A stretch of DNA of 32,505 nt, from assembly GCA_017858255.1 (NCBI GenBank), contig JAFMBV010000035.1, positions 1 to 32,505 of the forward strand, in the 5' to 3' direction. This document shows, in pieces, positions 895 through 12,633 of the stretch (positions are counted from its first letter, which is position 1; each line of letters starts with the position of its first letter). This DNA is from Bacteriovoracaceae bacterium. GTDB taxonomy: Bacteria > Bdellovibrionota > Bacteriovoracia > Bacteriovoracales > Bacteriovoracaceae. The notes below the pieces were generated by a model. The model had not been told where the DNA came from. It searched no databases and saw only the letters and a list, made by a program, of their open reading frames with translations. The translations under genes and the position numbers were made by a program.

Positions 895-1686
895 TTATTG
901 ACCAGTGTATTGAGGTGGACGTTTTTCAAGAAAGGCCTGCATGCCTTCTTTTTGATCATCCATGGAAAACGTCAGATAGAAGTTGCGTCTTTCCAGTTTG
1001 AGACCTTCATTTAGAGTGGTATTAAAAGCGGCATTAATACCTTCTTTGATTAGACGCAAGGCCATGGGAGATTTTTGTGCCATTTTCTTAGCACATTCCT
1101 TTGCCTCAACAACTGTTGTTCGGTATGGAACAACCTTGGCCACTAGGCCCATCTTTTCTGCTGCAAAGGCATCAAACATTTCTCCTGTTAAGGCGTAGTA
1201 GCTGGCCTTTGCCTTGCCAACAGTTCGCGTAAACCGTTGGGTACCACCTGCTCCAGGAGTTGTTCCAATATTTATTTCGGGTTGGCCAAATTTTGCATTG
1301 TCTCCTGCAATTATGAGGTCACATGCCATGGCCAATTCGTGACCACCACCAAGACAGAAACCATTGACGGCCGCAATGATAGGAAAAGGAAAAGAGCAAA
1401 ACTCTGTCCAAAGCTTTTCACGATCATCATTAATCTGATCACTAGGTTTAGCCGCAAGCATTTGCTTAATATCGGCACCTGCTGCAAAGGCCTTATCGTT
1501 GCCAGTTAAGACAACAATAGGGGACAGCTCTTTAATGCCGGATAACGCCGCTACGATCTCCCTTAGGGTATGAGTATCAAGAGCATTGAGGACTTTTGGT
1601 CTATTAAGGGTAATTGTAACAACACCACTTTGAGAGAGGTCTTTTGTATCAACTAGGATATTTTCAAAATCGAAGTGGCTATTCAA
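895..1686 (-). CDS. PaaF-like enoyl-CoA hydratase
   Basis: A 263-residue crotonase. Both hydratase glutamates are visible: GGGHELAMACD (first Glu) and GQPEINIG followed by PGAGGTQR (second Glu). An active syn-hydratase is therefore expected. The closest remembered relatives are PaaF (2,3-dehydroadipyl-CoA hydratase) and short-chain enoyl-CoA hydratases; the DREKLW segment after GADIKQM fits PaaF. The start is a TTG at 1686, with AGAGG about 5 bases upstream. It overlaps the 3' end of hppD by 8 bases, so translation is probably coupled. No ATG lies near the N-terminus, and starting at the TTG gives the normal family N-terminus. General beta-oxidation is the alternative role. Confidence 0.85.
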   Translation of the reverse strand: MNSHFDFENILVDTKDLSQSGVVTITLNRPKVLNALDTHTLREIVAALSGIKELSPIVVLTGNDKAFAAGADIKQMLAAKPSDQINDDREKLWTEFCSFPFPIIAAVNGFCLGGGHELAMACDLIIAGDNAKFGQPEINIGTTPGAGGTQRFTRTVGKAKASYYALTGEMFDAFAAEKMGLVAKVVPYRTTVVEAKECAKKMAQKSPMALRLIKEGINAAFNTTLNEGLKLERRNFYLTFSMDDQKEGMQAFLEKRPPQYTGQ

Positions 1687-2761
1687 GGTAACCTCTTTTC
1701 ATTTGATCTCGTTCAATGGCATCAAAGAGTGCTTGGAAGTTTCCTTCTCCAAAGCCCCAGTGCTTCTTTCTTTGAATGTACTCAAAGAAAAGAGGGCCCA
1801 CATAAGTTTCTGAAAAGTTTTGAATGAGATAACCCTCTTCGTCTCCATCTACCAGAAGCTGTTTTTCTTCTAAAACGGATATATCTTCTTCAACCTTAAA
1901 TGGGCGGTTCGGAATATCCTCATAGTAAGTTTTTGGAATATCCAAAAACTTCATACCTCTGTCTCTAAGTTCACCGACGGTTTCAATAATGTCGCCAGAC
2001 ATGAGGGCAATATGTTGGACACCAGCGCCGTTATGAAGATCAAGAAATTCCTGGATTTGTGATTTACCGTTTTCTGCTTCAGGCTCATTAATAGGGATAA
2101 TCACTGAGTTGTTAGGAAGTTGAACAACTTCAGACTGAAGGCCTGTCTTTACGCCCTTTATGTCAAAGTAACGAGTTACTTTCATGCCAAATATTTTTTT
2201 ATAGTATTCCACCCACTTCTTCATCTCACCTTTTGGAACATTATTAGTAAGATGATCAATACGAGCGACTCTTTGCTTTAATGGATTCGCTTCTGGGTCT
2301 TCTGTTTTTTCAAAGCCTGGACGAAAGCCGTCGTTAGGGCGCTCTATAAATTCATTATGGACATCACCAAAGCCTTTAATGATCGCATTTTTATAAACGC
2401 CAGATGGCCCTTCTGTAATTTTTAATTCTTGAACAACTTCAGCTCCGCGAGACTTTGCTTCATTAATGGCGTGTTCACAATCTTCAACTTGAAAAGAGAG
2501 AGTTGATACACCTTCGCCATGATTTTCAAAGTAGGTACGAGAGTGACCTGTTGGTGCGGCCTTTAAAAGGAAGCGAACTTGTCCTTGAGAAAAGAGTTCT
2601 TGATTGTCTGGACCCTTTTCCGTCAAGACAAAACCAATGCGATGGAAAAGTTCTCTTGTTGGAGTCGTTAACTTTTCACAAGTAAACTCCAGGTGGTCTA
2701 TGGCCTTAATGCCGAGAGGGTTATCAGGTGAAATTGTTGATCTTTGGCTAGCTTCAGTCAT
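1679..2761 (-). CDS. hppD: 4-hydroxyphenylpyruvate dioxygenase
   Basis: A non-heme Fe(II) dioxygenase that converts 4-hydroxyphenylpyruvate and O2 to homogentisate and CO2, the second step of tyrosine breakdown. At 360 residues it matches bacterial HPPDs. The two vicinal-oxygen-chelate halves are visible. The metal ligands are His170 (RIDHLTNN), His250 (GVQHIAL) and Glu327 (LFFEYIQR). The C-terminal GEGNFQALFDAIERDQ helix that closes the active site is present. The ATG at 2761 has AAGGA 6 bases upstream. It is the first gene of an operon with two crotonases, not with homogentisate dioxygenase as is common. The intergenic region upstream is shared with a divergent secreted-protein gene and carries a 9-bp tandem repeat. 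Confidence 0.95.
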   Translation of the reverse strand: MTEASQRSTISPDNPLGIKAIDHLEFTCEKLTTPTRELFHRIGFVLTEKGPDNQELFSQGQVRFLLKAAPTGHSRTYFENHGEGVSTLSFQVEDCEHAINEAKSRGAEVVQELKITEGPSGVYKNAIIKGFGDVHNEFIERPNDGFRPGFEKTEDPEANPLKQRVARIDHLTNNVPKGEMKKWVEYYKKIFGMKVTRYFDIKGVKTGLQSEVVQLPNNSVIIPINEPEAENGKSQIQEFLDLHNGAGVQHIALMSGDIIETVGELRDRGMKFLDIPKTYYEDIPNRPFKVEEDISVLEEKQLLVDGDEEGYLIQNFSETYVGPLFFEYIQRKKHWGFGEGNFQALFDAIERDQMKRGYLE

Positions 2762-5091: not shown

Positions 5092-5871
5092 TTAGAAATC
5101 GTTTATACGTGAAACGACTTGTGGGAAGTCGATAAAGGGGTTTCTATTACCCTGTATTTCTTGGATTCCTTCGTTACGTCTAAGTTCTTCGCTATCAACA
5201 GGGTCATCTTTGTGCCACTTACGAAGGTAAAACTCTTCTATGCTACTTATACGATAACCATAGCGGGCCGAAACATAGAACATGGCGCGAGCGGTATTTC
5301 CTCTGTGTTCTTTAGGTGGCTCAAAACCATAAGTTCCCGAGGTATTTCCTGTTTTAGGATTGATAATGGAGCCTCTTTGAGAAAGGGGACACAACTCTGT
5401 AGCGTCTTTTCCGTTTACCTCGCCAAAGGGATGATTTCCTCTGGCAGAGTTAGCACGGCTGTTGGTCGGGTAAAGGTGGTGGAGATCTCCACGAGCAGGT
5501 TCTCTTTTTGCGCCTTTAGATTGGGGCCAGGTATGCTCTGTGTTCATCTCGTTATTGTTTGGAATTCGATTGGGTCCAACATTTTTGCGAATGATAAAGC
5601 CGCAGTAAACATCGCGAACGAATCTTCCCTCACTGTCTCTTTCTAAATAGATATTTCCAAAAAGCTCTTTTTTGGCGCGTTTTTTATAACCAAGGCCGTG
5701 AAAGCTTCTTCCTGAGGCGCTTTTGAGAACATCCATCAAAGCCTTGTCACGCCTTTGACCGCTTTCAAGTTCTCGTTGAGTATTTTCATCATAATAGGAG
5801 TAGGAGTCGGAGTTGTTACGGGCAAGAGCATTACCTGTTAATAAAAAGAAAACCAGCATTAAAGTCTGCAT
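5092..5871 (-). CDS. Secreted endonuclease I family nuclease
   Basis: A 259-residue nuclease of the EndA/NucM (endonuclease I) family, which cuts DNA non-specifically in the periplasm or outside the cell. Residues 1-18 form a signal peptide (LVFFLLTGNALA). The beta-beta-alpha-metal active site is visible: NTEHTWPQS (Glu112, His113), then DLHHLYPTNSRANSARGNHPFG, with His131/His132 and Asn residues at 137 and 141. Further family signatures are EHRGNTARAMFYVSARYGY and the C-terminal RNEGIQEIQGNRNPFIDFP. The ATG at 5871 has AGGAG 5 bases upstream. The likely use is degrading foreign or prey DNA for nucleotides; that role is inference. Confidence 0.92.
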   Translation of the reverse strand: MQTLMLVFFLLTGNALARNNSDSYSYYDENTQRELESGQRRDKALMDVLKSASGRSFHGLGYKKRAKKELFGNIYLERDSEGRFVRDVYCGFIIRKNVGPNRIPNNNEMNTEHTWPQSKGAKREPARGDLHHLYPTNSRANSARGNHPFGEVNGKDATELCPLSQRGSIINPKTGNTSGTYGFEPPKEHRGNTARAMFYVSARYGYRISSIEEFYLRKWHKDDPVDSEELRRNEGIQEIQGNRNPFIDFPQVVSRINDF

Positions 5872-9000: not shown

Positions 9001-9525
9001 CTACACGATCTTTATATCTACGATAGAGGTGCCAGAGCGCCAGAGTTTATTTCGAAAGCGGCAGAGCTTGGAGAGTACTTTAAAGAGAGTAATTCTCTTC
9101 GGGCCATGGCCTTAAGAACGCTGGCAAAGACTTACTTTGTGAAAGATGAGGTTTTTGTTTCTCATATTATGATTAGTCCCCAGAAAAGGGCCGATGATGC
9201 TAATCGCTTTGGTAGTCTTGGAAAGAGTTTTCGCCTCAATCGTATCAATAGACCGGCGTTCGAAGTTCTTGGAAAGAAAATAGAATTTGATGTTAGTCCA
9301 AAGGACTGGATGCTTAAAATTATGCGACACATGCGCCTCTTAAGACTTCTTCTAAGGTCTTGGCATGGAAAGGAAAGAAAGATTGCGGGCCTTATCCGTA
9401 CTGAACTTATGGAGGTTGTTCCAAAGCTTCAGGAGAGTGAGCAAAGGAGCGCATTGAAGCGACTTGAAAATATAAAAGGTTATCGAGAATTTCGTTATCA
9501 AAAGGCCGAAGGTTTGTTGGGGTGA
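6100..9525 (+). CDS. Indolepyruvate/arylpyruvate:ferredoxin oxidoreductase, fused IorA-IorB type
   Basis: A single-chain 2-oxoacid:ferredoxin oxidoreductase of about 1141 residues. It oxidatively decarboxylates arylpyruvates to aryl-acetyl-CoA with reduction of ferredoxin. In order: N-terminal pyrimidine-binding domain (GYPGSPLADY near residue 25); TPP domain with GDVGCYS and the motif GDSTFF to NDNTAMTG (about 469-505); a two-cluster ferredoxin-like segment (CEDCRAC with CPG, then CVADSYC with CP, about 606-652); the gamma/IorB domain beginning VTGVGGSG (about 703); and a basic C-terminal extension of the DUF6537 kind (about 900-1141). I prefer GTG 6100, which has AGAAGG 7 bases upstream; ATG 6064 is in frame but has no ribosome site. 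It is the first gene of a three-gene overlapping operon. Confidence 0.9.
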   Translation: MSKKIQILNGNELIVQGGLEAGFSLYTGYPGSPLADYFNILHGRKNELAEKGIKVVIANSEANAAAMASGAKQAGRDCIVAMKSMGLHVASDALSVGNFANPGDTSIDPENGDTIYPGVVVAVGDDPWSISTSTPADSRFLYKHLHIPFLEPSSPQELKDWIAHALYISKRTSIYQGLLLTTFLAEGGGRVEIGEEVAVQKEVTTLDPSKFDLSKNVMVPPNSLLADVSMIKERFPKVKTILGRLKLDKTFGMDSSIGFISSGVIFETLKQVLEEGDYLERYSLYKLASSYPLVEDLLLPWLKNKKTVIVVEEKRGFLETELREFCQKHSLSLTIFGKELGDVEGFPAHGGLTYELIRDKVKEALEVTGEVACSGLNWEFKKWGEPLPRRLPTFCPGCPHRETLSLLKDLRQTLKDEGVDLISHGDVGCYSLSFLPPFKEMHNLSAMGQGGALGAGLDIFTDNPSVVLMGDSTFFHSGITDISNSVQASHNITYILLDNDNTAMTGHQMTPASGQNVEGKTRPRQDMLNSVYALGVDYATEVNPSDRYFYKSLLKDVVKKNGVKVIVSNKECALTFHGRKKREERKIFSQNKTLSEQVFFQINTDACEDCRACVDATGCPGLGQVMDAYGTKVIIDQQICVADSYCTKIKACPSFEEVIVKNYHPTLHQKAVGIGDEDKTYPEPIVEKTFEKIASGEDLRIVVTGVGGSGVTTISRVLAEAAKGMGGREDLDFKFVDQKGLAQRNGNVTGHLAIFKKGKSYGAVTPLGTADLLVSPDLLDGSQHVHFIGEKGLCLLDNKFQIPLSLMLDDGVEKEPLNESELRRKLSNLLGEQVRYFSLKELSHIGLGKSVYASAMILGVSYQAGKLPFSVEDLYQAFQKTVPKAEFDNNWQAFQWGREIFLEGDKDLLAKFRKRRKRTREELLYRSLEESMLPWQNKKVILNIFKNQLEKLIKYFPEVKRVYLAQYLHDLYIYDRGARAPEFISKAAELGEYFKESNSLRAMALRTLAKTYFVKDEVFVSHIMISPQKRADDANRFGSLGKSFRLNRINRPAFEVLGKKIEFDVSPKDWMLKIMRHMRLLRLLLRSWHGKERKIAGLIRTELMEVVPKLQESEQRSALKRLENIKGYREFRYQKAEGLLG

Positions 9526-11288
9526 AAATCTTTCTAACTTTATTATGTTTGTTTTCTCTCTCCTTTCAAACCTATGCCTTTGTTCCTGGTCTTTTAGAAC
9601 AAGGCCGCCTCATGGTCGGCTTAATCGAAGAGGCCCGTACTTGTTCAGTAAAGTATGAAGCTGAAAAGTTAACGCTTTGTACGGGATTAACCCTAGATAA
9701 GGCAGATATTAAGTTCCTTAATGATCTCAATCTTAATTCTTGTAAACTTTTTCTCAAACAAATGAAGTATCAGGTTCACGAGGTGACGGCCAAAAGTGAC
9801 CTCTCTGGAATTAAGAAAGAAATTTTAGAAGACTTTTTTAATTCCACCAAACTTGCCCTTATTTTACATCGGGAACGGGCAATCCTATTTAAAAGGGAGG
9901 CCAAGAGAGGGGATTGCCTTCACGAGGTAATCCACTTCTATCAAAGAAAAAGGCCCAATCTTCTGTCTCTTTCACCCTTGAAGCGAAAAGAAAAAGAGCG
10001 TCGTTTACAGTATCTATTAGAACAAGCTGTTCTTGAAGTTGAAAAAATTGAAAAGAAAGGAGATATCTCCAAGGCAAAGAAAATGGCCGCCCAAATTGGA
10101 CCTTTTATTAATCTCCAACGGGAATGGCAACGCCTTATCAATTGGCTTGATGAAAAAGAAATTTATCAAGTCTTCTTTGATTATCCAGCACTCTTCTCCC
10201 TTGGAGAGAGAGATCAGGACATCGCCTTGTCTAATTTAGTGCGTTTAAAAGACTCTCTACCTTGGGGACTGCGGGAGCGAGTTTTGCGAGGTGCTCAAAT
10301 TGAGCTCAATAAAAAGTATGCCAATATCACAACCCCTAAAAATCTTCTGAAACTTAAAAGTGAAAAAGGCTACAGTGAGGCCTTTAATAAAGGCCAAATT
10401 AGTCGCGATGTATTTGAGGCAAAAGTGATTGCAAGAAGAAAGTACCTCGCCTATGAATTGGTGAAAGAGGGCAGAAGAAAAGGTAAATTAGAATTAACGT
10501 TTAAGGGGCTAGCAAGGGCAAGGGCCTTTCAAGTACCAATCGAATATGAATCATCTGTTATAGATTTAGAGTTTCCTTACACTATTAAAAATGAACTACC
10601 TCAAGTTGTTATAAATGGATTTAACTTTGTTATTGATACCGGTGCTCAAGATAGTGTCGCACCATGGGCCTTCTTTAAAGATATAAAAGAGAGTGACCTG
10701 TCTCTGATTAAAGAGCTTAGATTGCAAACGGTAAAGGGGAGACCAATCTCTGCTCCCGTTGTGCAATTTAAGAAAAAAATAACTCTTGGTGGTAATGCCT
10801 TGGCCGGAATGACTTTTGCAATTGCAGATTTGGGAATGCCAGGTATCGAAGGCGTCCTAGGCATGGACTTTTTTCACCGCTTTAACAATGGGCTTTGGCA
10901 GTGGAATAGGGATACATTGAAATTGTCTTCTCTCTCTTTAAATACCCCATGGGAGAAGACCTACTTTCTTGTGGGCAATGGTCTCAAAGAGTTTGATGCT
11001 CTTGAGTTTTATTGCTCCGAAAAGAAAGTGACTAAGCTCCGCCTTGATACAGGAAGCCAACTATTAGGAGATGTCCAAAATAATATTCCAATGGATAATT
11101 TTAAAGCGTGCATGGCCCCCAAGATGATTTCTAAGTTAAATAAACTTAGTGCAGGGCTCGTTCTCTTTGATCGTGAAGTGGCCGCGAATCTTGGTTTCCC
11201 TTTTCTAAAAGAGCATAAGGCCATGGGCATTGACCTCAAGAAGGGGGAACTCTATTTGACGACCAAGGGAGCAGTTGGTGGCAAGTAA
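9522..11288 (+). CDS. Exported protein with two retropepsin-like aspartyl protease motifs
   Basis: A 588-residue protein with a signal peptide (residues 1-19, LCLFSLSFQTYA), a long charged helical N-terminal half (about 25-340) and a C-terminal part resembling aspartic proteases. The first site is FVIDTGAQDS, catalytic Asp372, followed by GVLGMDFF, the usual late hydrophobic-Gly motif. A second site, LRLDTGSQLL, has Asp509 and is followed by ANLGFPFL. The two DTG motifs are 137 residues apart, suggesting two lobes in one chain. The GTG start at 9522 overlaps the ior stop (GTGA), so translation is coupled. The next gene overlaps its end. Retropepsin-like domains of bacterial type usually have one DTG. 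The substrate is unknown, and it could also be a non-catalytic peptide binder. Confidence 0.75.
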   Translation: MKIFLTLLCLFSLSFQTYAFVPGLLEQGRLMVGLIEEARTCSVKYEAEKLTLCTGLTLDKADIKFLNDLNLNSCKLFLKQMKYQVHEVTAKSDLSGIKKEILEDFFNSTKLALILHRERAILFKREAKRGDCLHEVIHFYQRKRPNLLSLSPLKRKEKERRLQYLLEQAVLEVEKIEKKGDISKAKKMAAQIGPFINLQREWQRLINWLDEKEIYQVFFDYPALFSLGERDQDIALSNLVRLKDSLPWGLRERVLRGAQIELNKKYANITTPKNLLKLKSEKGYSEAFNKGQISRDVFEAKVIARRKYLAYELVKEGRRKGKLELTFKGLARARAFQVPIEYESSVIDLEFPYTIKNELPQVVINGFNFVIDTGAQDSVAPWAFFKDIKESDLSLIKELRLQTVKGRPISAPVVQFKKKITLGGNALAGMTFAIADLGMPGIEGVLGMDFFHRFNNGLWQWNRDTLKLSSLSLNTPWEKTYFLVGNGLKEFDALEFYCSEKKVTKLRLDTGSQLLGDVQNNIPMDNFKACMAPKMISKLNKLSAGLVLFDREVAANLGFPFLKEHKAMGIDLKKGELYLTTKGAVGGK

Positions 11289-12633
11289 GTTAAGAGAGTC
11301 AGTCTCTGCCATCTTTCGCTCTCGTGAAACAGGAAAAATATTTACTATTAAGAGACAAAATTATCTCTCTGTCTTTCCTGGTTACACTGCCTTTCCAGGT
11401 GGTAAAGTAGACCCTGAGGATACCCAACTAAGCGCCAAGTCTGGAGATGTAGCACCATTTGCTCTTAGTGGAACTCATTGGCAAGCTCTCTCAAGAGAAA
11501 TGGAAGAGGAGATAGGTTTTTCTCTCATTGAAAACTTATCCCTTATTAAAGACATTTTCCTATTTGGCACGGCGATAACCCCTGAGTTTAATCCTTACCG
11601 TTTTAAGGCCCACTTCTTTATTGTTGAGCTTGAAAAAGAAATTGATTTCAAGGTAGATGCTGGTGAGGCCGTGGAGAGTGGTTGGTTTGGTTGTGAAGAG
11701 CTTCTCTCTCTTTATGAGAAAAATACGTTGATGGCCGTTCCACCAATTGTCTTTATGATCCAAAGGCTATGCCAAAAGGACTTACCTCAAGGGGAACAGG
11801 ACTTAACTCTTCCTCATATTGTAGGTCGTGAAGTACCAATGATTGAATCCCTATATGGAGTTAAGCAATTCCTTCCTCTTTCAAATACTTTTCCACCAGC
11901 AAATAGGACAAATTGTTTTATTATTGGAGATGAACCTCTAAAGCTACTTGTCGATCCTAGCCCAAAGGATGAAGAGGAGTTAGAAAAACTGTGTCGCAGC
12001 GTTGATAAGGTAGGCTTCGATGCTTTCTTAATTTCGCATCATCACTCAGATCACCATGAGCATTTACCATTAATGCATAAACGCTATCCTTTACCGGTTT
12101 ACATGAGCGAGGTGACTCATCAATTTATCGTAAATAAGTGGGGCCTTGATTATTTAAAAGGAATGGACATTCATTTCTTAAAAGAAGGTGACAGTATAGG
12201 CAGTAGTCTTGGAAGGCGCCTTATGGTTTATGAGGTTCCTGGTCATGATGAAGGTCAGCTTGCTCTCGCCCCAGATGATATGTCTTGGTTCTTTGTGGGG
12301 GACCTTATTCAAACTATTGGAACCGTAGTTATTGGTGGTGTCGAAGGTGATATGATTAAGTACTTTGAGAGTCTGAACAAGGTCATAAATTTAAATCCTA
12401 AGTTCATCATCCCCAGTCATGGCATCGCGCTTGGTGGTGTTCATAAATTAAAAATGACTTTAAAGCACCGAGTGCATCGTGAAGAGCAAATCATTGAACT
12501 TCTTAGAGAGGGAGCAGATGAAGAAAAGCTTCTCAATGTTATTTATGAGGGACTTGAAGAGCGCCTTATCCCATACGCGAGAAAAACAATTACTGCCCAT
12601 CTCAATAAGATCAGGACTGAGAAAAGATCTTAA
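11278..12633 (+). CDS. Nudix hydrolase fused to metallo-beta-lactamase domain
   Basis: About 451 residues in two domains. The N-terminal Nudix domain has AFPGGKVDPED and, after an insertion of roughly 20 residues, REMEEEIGF (about residue 73), so its Nudix box is split as in CoA-diphosphatase-like members. The C-terminal metallo-beta-lactamase domain has SHHHSDHHEHL (HxHxDH, about residue 253), VPGHDEG, FVGDLI and IPSHGIALGG, a complete set of two-metal ligands. It looks like LACTB2/glyoxalase-II-type hydrolases. AAGGGAG at 11265-11271 favours GTG 11278; TTG 11275 is the alternative. It overlaps the preceding gene by 11 bases. Its stop overlaps the convergent stop of the next operon. The joint substrate, perhaps an acyl-CoA or nucleotide thioester, is inference. 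Confidence 0.85.
   Translation: MASKLRESVSAIFRSRETGKIFTIKRQNYLSVFPGYTAFPGGKVDPEDTQLSAKSGDVAPFALSGTHWQALSREMEEEIGFSLIENLSLIKDIFLFGTAITPEFNPYRFKAHFFIVELEKEIDFKVDAGEAVESGWFGCEELLSLYEKNTLMAVPPIVFMIQRLCQKDLPQGEQDLTLPHIVGREVPMIESLYGVKQFLPLSNTFPPANRTNCFIIGDEPLKLLVDPSPKDEEELEKLCRSVDKVGFDAFLISHHHSDHHEHLPLMHKRYPLPVYMSEVTHQFIVNKWGLDYLKGMDIHFLKEGDSIGSSLGRRLMVYEVPGHDEGQLALAPDDMSWFFVGDLIQTIGTVVIGGVEGDMIKYFESLNKVINLNPKFIIPSHGIALGGVHKLKMTLKHRVHREEQIIELLREGADEEKLLNVIYEGLEERLIPYARKTITAHLNKIRTEKRS

Follow-up and report, generated by a model that had tools for sequence, protein, structure and literature searches.

A putative exported protein of Bacteriovoracia joining a zincin-like HExxH domain to a predicted pepsin-like module

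The window, that is, the whole stretch of 32,505 nucleotides that was analysed, carries at 9522-11288 on the forward strand an open reading frame for a protein of 588 residues, hereafter the window protein. Its GTG start shares four nucleotides (GTGA, 9522-9525) with the stop of the upstream gene, and the downstream reading frame begins at TTG 11275 or GTG 11278, 11-14 nt before the 588-residue frame ends. An earlier note, made from the DNA letters, had described translational coupling to both neighbours; the overlaps are indeed there, and from them we infer the coupling itself, which stays putative. The protein starts with a signal-peptide-like stretch (Table 1), with a mean hydropathy of 2.44 across the 12 residues of its hydrophobic core, and an equivalent start is found in most homologues. 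This call was made from residue composition and the comparison with homologues, and would make the protein a putatively exported one, either periplasmic or secreted. Neither an NCBIfam search nor a PDB sequence search with the single window protein returned a match.

Table 1. Positions in the window of the 588-residue protein's features and of its genomic partners
Feature	Residues	Coordinates	Strand	Remarks
Signal-peptide-like N-terminus, MKIFLTLLCLFSLSFQTYA followed by F	1-19	9522..9578	+	Charged start, hydrophobic core, A at -1
N-terminal HExxH (zincin-like) domain	20-272	9579..10337	+	Motif, conservation, predicted fold
HEVIH motif	134-138	9921..9935	+	Candidate zinc ligands H134/H138, candidate catalytic E135; invariant 20/20
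E211 in WLDEKEIY, candidate third zinc ligand	211	10152..10154	+	Invariant 20/20
Helical linker	273-344	10338..10553	+	Collinearity with HESLH, the second HExxH copy of L045, via the longer Halobacteriovorax linkers
Bilobal pepsin-like aspartyl protease module (predicted)	345-583	10554..11270	+	Lobe 1 matches Pfam Asp_protease_2; A1 pepsins align over the two lobes
First catalytic motif (candidate), D372-T-G, NFVIDTGAQDSV		10635..10643	+	D and G kept 12/12
Second catalytic motif (candidate), D509-T-G, KLRLDTGSQLLG		11046..11054	+	D and G kept 12/12; T or S 12/12
Upstream partner, indolepyruvate:ferredoxin oxidoreductase, 1153 aa		6064..9525	+	Pfam TPP_enzyme_C and POR
Downstream partner, NUDIX + metallo-beta-lactamase-fold fusion protein		11275..12633	+	Pfam
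4-Hydroxyphenylpyruvate dioxygenase-like (HPPD) gene		1679-2761	-	Near the oxidoreductase

The N-terminal part had been noted earlier as having no familiar motif; HEVIH, and with it a conserved HExxH...E signature, had been overlooked. Across 20 diverged relatives (18-63% identity, some of them without any protease module), only six alignment columns are invariant, namely H134, E135, H138, Q141, R155 and E211, and the motif itself varies among relatives as HEVLH, HETLH, HEIIH, HEFLH, HELLH, HELIH, HELMH, HEYIH, HEYLH and HEWIH. Modelled alone with AlphaFold2, the domain gave a confident prediction (pLDDT 93.3, pTM 0.86), with HEVIH on a helix (129-143 in the full-length model) preceded by strands at 112-115 and 120-123. 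E211 lies 73 residues past H138 in the window protein, and H134/E135/H138...E211 together read as a gluzincin-like HExxH...E signature and a predicted zinc site. Cys41, Cys53, Cys74 and Cys132, invariant in all 12 members of the full family, would fit an oxidising compartment.

No Pfam profile matched the domain above cut-off. Below it, the set of relatives gave DUF6782, a 'putative metallopeptidase' (3.7e-4, three members), Tox-MPTase4 and SprT-like, and the ImmA/IrrE (M78) profile was absent from the matches of all 20 members at E ≤ 1. A profile of the domain had no match among PDB sequences, and fold searches of the PDB with Foldseek and VIA gave no significant match: the VIA rows were mostly helical bundles at background level (Z 8.8 or less), with no zincin among those listed. 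For this reason, the label 'zincin' rests on motif and conservation. IrrE and IrrE-like MtPrpR, which is related to IrrE (PMC6765138), were among the top Foldseek rows at a non-significant E above 0.7, and we treat this structural resemblance of the model as a lead only. The IrrE/PprI (M78) zincins have HExxH on a helix and a downstream Glu, as does the window domain, whereas the Foldseek E value, the H138-to-Glu spacing of 73, the signal-peptide-like start and the conserved cysteines set the latter apart. The HExxH domain, which in relatives also exists apart from the protease module, is a new family candidate with no above-cut-off Pfam match.

Clues to the origin of the short helical linker (FNKGQISRDVFE) come from relatives. 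A protein from another family within the same phylum (L045, 246-1721, plus strand) is of the exported type and carries two HExxH copies of the window N-domain type (HEWIH and HESLH) and no DTG. The long linker of the Halobacteriovorax homologues, which has lost the HExxH motif, can be aligned with the second half of L045 (blastp 3e-8 for L043). The window's linker corresponds to part of this long linker, non-significantly by itself, and the window protein against the second half of L045 is likewise not significant alone (blastp 0.19). The collinearity makes an HExxH-HExxH-lobe-lobe ancestor conceivable, from which the window protein may have derived, and the linker would probably be the leftover of a second, degenerate HExxH repeat.

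In this family a second HExxH repeat has apparently already degenerated, which can be held against an enzymatic role of the remaining one. Pepsins carry propeptides at the N-terminus, and the HExxH domain occupies the same place; moreover, the N-domain matched no known peptidase fold (Foldseek, VIA). It could accordingly be pictured as a prodomain, structural or stabilised by zinc, through which the aspartyl module, as the sole enzyme, is kept under control. A purely structural domain, however, would have no need of E135, a residue that is invariant to the same degree as the putative ligands, even in proteins lacking the aspartyl module. We regard the prodomain explanation as rather improbable, and prefer the one in which both modules are peptidases.

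The C-terminal module was approached by profile and by structure prediction. Residues 367-450, in lobe 1, matched Asp_protease_2 (PF13650, clan AA) above the curated cut-off (1.7e-9, 38.7 bits vs 24.3), and lobe 1 also matched gag-asp_proteas; no second Asp_protease_2 protein was found in the same genome. Lobe 2 gave no Pfam match, and PF00026 had no match in the window protein up to E 10. Since PF00026 is not matched, we name the module pepsin-like and keep it out of family A1. An AlphaFold2 model of the full protein, built from 12 sequences (pLDDT 85.3, pTM 0.79), superposed with VIA-align over residues 346-583 on both lobes of complete single-chain pepsins. The predicted model fitted chymosin with Z 16.8 over 218 residues at 3.7 Å, and all 50 matches listed were A1-type bilobal enzymes (Z 15-16.8, ~220 residues). 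The model contains, in a single chain, two lobes with one D[ST]G each, which is the A1 arrangement and not that of the A2 retropepsins, with one lobe per chain and a homodimer. Because the model is confident and superposes on single-chain pepsins, we accept, at model level, a pepsin-type pseudo-dimer within one chain, an idea already put forward in the earlier note.

Aligning the two lobes with hhalign revealed similarity in the DTG neighbourhood only, and a recognisable internal duplication was rejected on that ground. Pepsin lobes are likewise alike in sequence only near the DTG, according to Rawlings and Bateman (PMC2761423). The A1 pepsins, including the bacterial shewasins, are single-chain and bilobal with one D[ST]G per lobe, as in the window model, but the window module has smaller lobes (about 240 residues in total) and no PF00026 match. 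In addition, the bacterial A1 homologues described so far are without signal peptides (PMC2761423), whereas the window protein has a signal-peptide-like start.

The bacterial retropepsin-like proteases of the Asp_protease_2 type (APRc, RloA, RimB) share PF13650 with lobe 1, and APRc (ApRick) came up as a weak profile match. These enzymes have one lobe per chain and act as dimers; the dimerisation of single-lobe bacterial retropepsins (PMC12239564) would allow the two half-lobes of the window protein to be active between molecules rather than within one chain. The window protein, in contrast, has two lobes that have diverged to the point of having only the DTG neighbourhood in common, and the pepsin two-lobe arrangement is already present in the single-chain model, which makes an intermolecular dimer very improbable.

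Conservation of the candidate catalytic residues was followed in 12 homologues, the window protein counted in. Asp372 and Asp509, with their hydrophobic-Gly partners GVLGMDFF and ANLGFPFL, are present in the window protein as reported earlier, and every homologue that covers them keeps the two Asp, the two Gly and the hydrophobic-Gly motifs, with a spacing of 129-141 residues between the equivalents of the two Asp. The second motif is embedded in R-x-D-[ST]-G-S-Q. Two observations had been named beforehand as fatal to a pseudo-dimer, the absence of the second DTG from close homologues and its location in an unrelated fold or far from the first; neither was encountered, as the second D[ST]G is found in every covering homologue and both motifs lie in the pepsin-like module of the model. 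A chance origin of the pair was considered as well and is ruled out by this conservation (12/12) together with shuffling: at least two D[ST]G arose in 1.1% of shuffled versions of the protein, and at least two in a hydrophobic-x-D[ST]G-small context in 0.005%.

The third position of the first motif is less constant. It is T in 6/12, L in 5/12 and F in 1/12, so that half of the family has DLG or DFG and has lost the fireman's-grip Thr of lobe 1, which counts against a working aspartyl site. One may then suppose that the working enzyme is the HExxH domain only, and that the pepsin-like module has turned or is turning into a binding or inhibitor-like domain whose task would be to trap peptides on behalf of the metallo-site. 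The protease region is also less conserved than the N-domain (23-39% vs 25-63% identity to the window protein), and the HExxH domain does exist without it. Furthermore, the pepsin fold acts as an inhibitor in plant EDGP-type proteins, where a VDLG first site goes with a lost second Asp and lost activity (PMC11313796). In the window-protein family, by contrast, both Asp are retained, with the Gly and hydrophobic-Gly motifs intact in all covering homologues, and each of the two sites is still DTG or DSG in the window protein and its closest relatives. We consider this alternative unlikely, and return to the reading with two working modules.

In its genomic setting, the gene has the oxidoreductase upstream in 11/11 named carrier loci, and the NUDIX-MBL gene downstream in 10/11, the 11th contig stopping before that point. 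Of 24 loci inspected in relatives that lack the gene, about ten have oxidoreductase and NUDIX-MBL next to each other. The NUDIX-MBL fusion is present in 98/125 family genomes, and its tree has protease carriers in two places (two changes, which may be gains or losses). Upstream of the 588-residue gene, the window also has HPPD and genes for two enoyl-CoA hydratases, and HPPD is close to the oxidoreductase in L040, L041 and L043 as well. An Endonuclease I family gene at 5092-5871 (-), a candidate exported nuclease, adjoins the operon and is kept in L034, L036 and L038. The gene content, amino-acid catabolism with the tyrosine-catabolic HPPD nearby, suggests that released amino acids would feed amino-acid, especially aromatic, catabolism. 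The operon context gives no direct indication of the substrate.

Full-length homologues were found in 12/129 family genomes, and when the GTDB collection was scanned by pattern, a method that reaches fairly close relatives only, 11 full-length loci came up. In these searches they occur only in Bacteriovoracaceae/Halobacteriovoraceae-type genomes, i.e. within Bacteriovoracia. This absence from most of the family could speak for a regulatory protease of the RloA kind, with one particular envelope protein as its target and a place in the operon that reflects co-regulation only; among bacterial retropepsin-like enzymes, those characterised have regulatory functions or links to the envelope (PMC12239564, PMC4140852). 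Such a role, which concerns function rather than architecture and can coexist with the fold proposed here, has the constant position within a catabolic operon against it. We judge it possible, though on the unlikely side.

With moderate confidence, we favour an exported two-module peptidase, with a zincin-like module 1 and a predicted pepsin-like module 2, that has a nutritional role within the operon. Module 1 (residues ~20-272) would carry an HExxHxxQ...E site in which zinc is probably held by H134, H138 and E211, with E135 as the putative general base. In module 2 (345-583), the catalytic dyad would consist of D372 and D509, one on each side of the interface between the lobes. Peptides or proteins outside the cytoplasm are the probable substrates of both modules, and the amino acids set free might supply the catabolic enzymes of the same operon, as one would expect of a bacterium living by predation or by scavenging protein. 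Since predatory lineages, Bacteriovorax among them, digest entire prey proteomes, a protease tied to an amino-acid catabolic operon is an obvious candidate contributor to that digestion.

If so, this would be an exported protease family uniting a new HExxH metallopeptidase with a complete pepsin-like aspartyl protease, two unrelated mechanisms side by side, which we put forward tentatively, as something short of an even chance. Zinc-type and aspartyl-type active sites in one chain would be unusual; a narrow literature search found no single chain described with both. The bilobal module, probably exported and strongly diverged, would also be relevant to the origin of pepsin-type enzymes from retropepsin-like halves.

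Tandem-DTG exported bacterial proteins, on the other hand, are already known, which weakens the earlier view of tandem DTG as uncommon in bacteria. The best Foldseek match (E 2.6e-8) was PDB 9iy9, an exported 'putative endopeptidase' of Bacteroides fragilis released in 2025, on which a literature search found no paper. Like the window protein, it has two DTG (YQFIFDTG and LMLHFDTG, at about 179 and 318) ~139 residues apart, and also bears a hydrophobic-Gly motif, NIGMDMI. The two proteins are only weakly similar in sequence (E 0.001), and no sequence match was obtained between the HExxH domain and the first ~165 residues of 9iy9. As far as the tools used here show, the fusion of a tandem-DTG module with this conserved, unnamed HExxH domain is undescribed.

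Other Bdellovibrionota proteins with tandem DTG likewise weaken the view of the pair as uncommon in bacteria. L095 and L096, from the same phylum, have tandem DTG without the N-domain, with two Pfam stretches each. In L032 (280-2157, minus), L033 (1321-3195, plus) and L092 (229-2109, minus), the tandem D[ST]G module comes first and an HExxH domain of a different type (NHE..H ... REFFSYTFE) last; given this reversed order, the association of tandem DTG with HExxH is known in two arrangements. The fusion in the window, if true, would be a single product of a combinatorial repertoire from which Bdellovibrionota assemble exported proteins, with tandem-DTG, HExxH of two kinds, transglutaminase-like and TPR as its modules.

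Several further proteins were seen alongside these. L123 (679-2151, plus), L125 (1228-2682, minus) and L127 (1156-2823, plus) have 'HERLH ... REFFSYT' and 'HEY[IL]H' domains in either order; L123 and L127 gave no Pfam match. L029 (418-2346, minus), L030 (1384-3219, plus) and L031 (418-2256, minus) join the window N-domain type to a transglutaminase-like domain and TPR, the domains being taken from Pfam for L030 and assigned by similarity for L029 and L031. Finally, L126 (1201-2967, minus) combines in a single protein a matrixin-like HELGH domain, TPR repeats and, at the C-terminus, an HEYLH domain.
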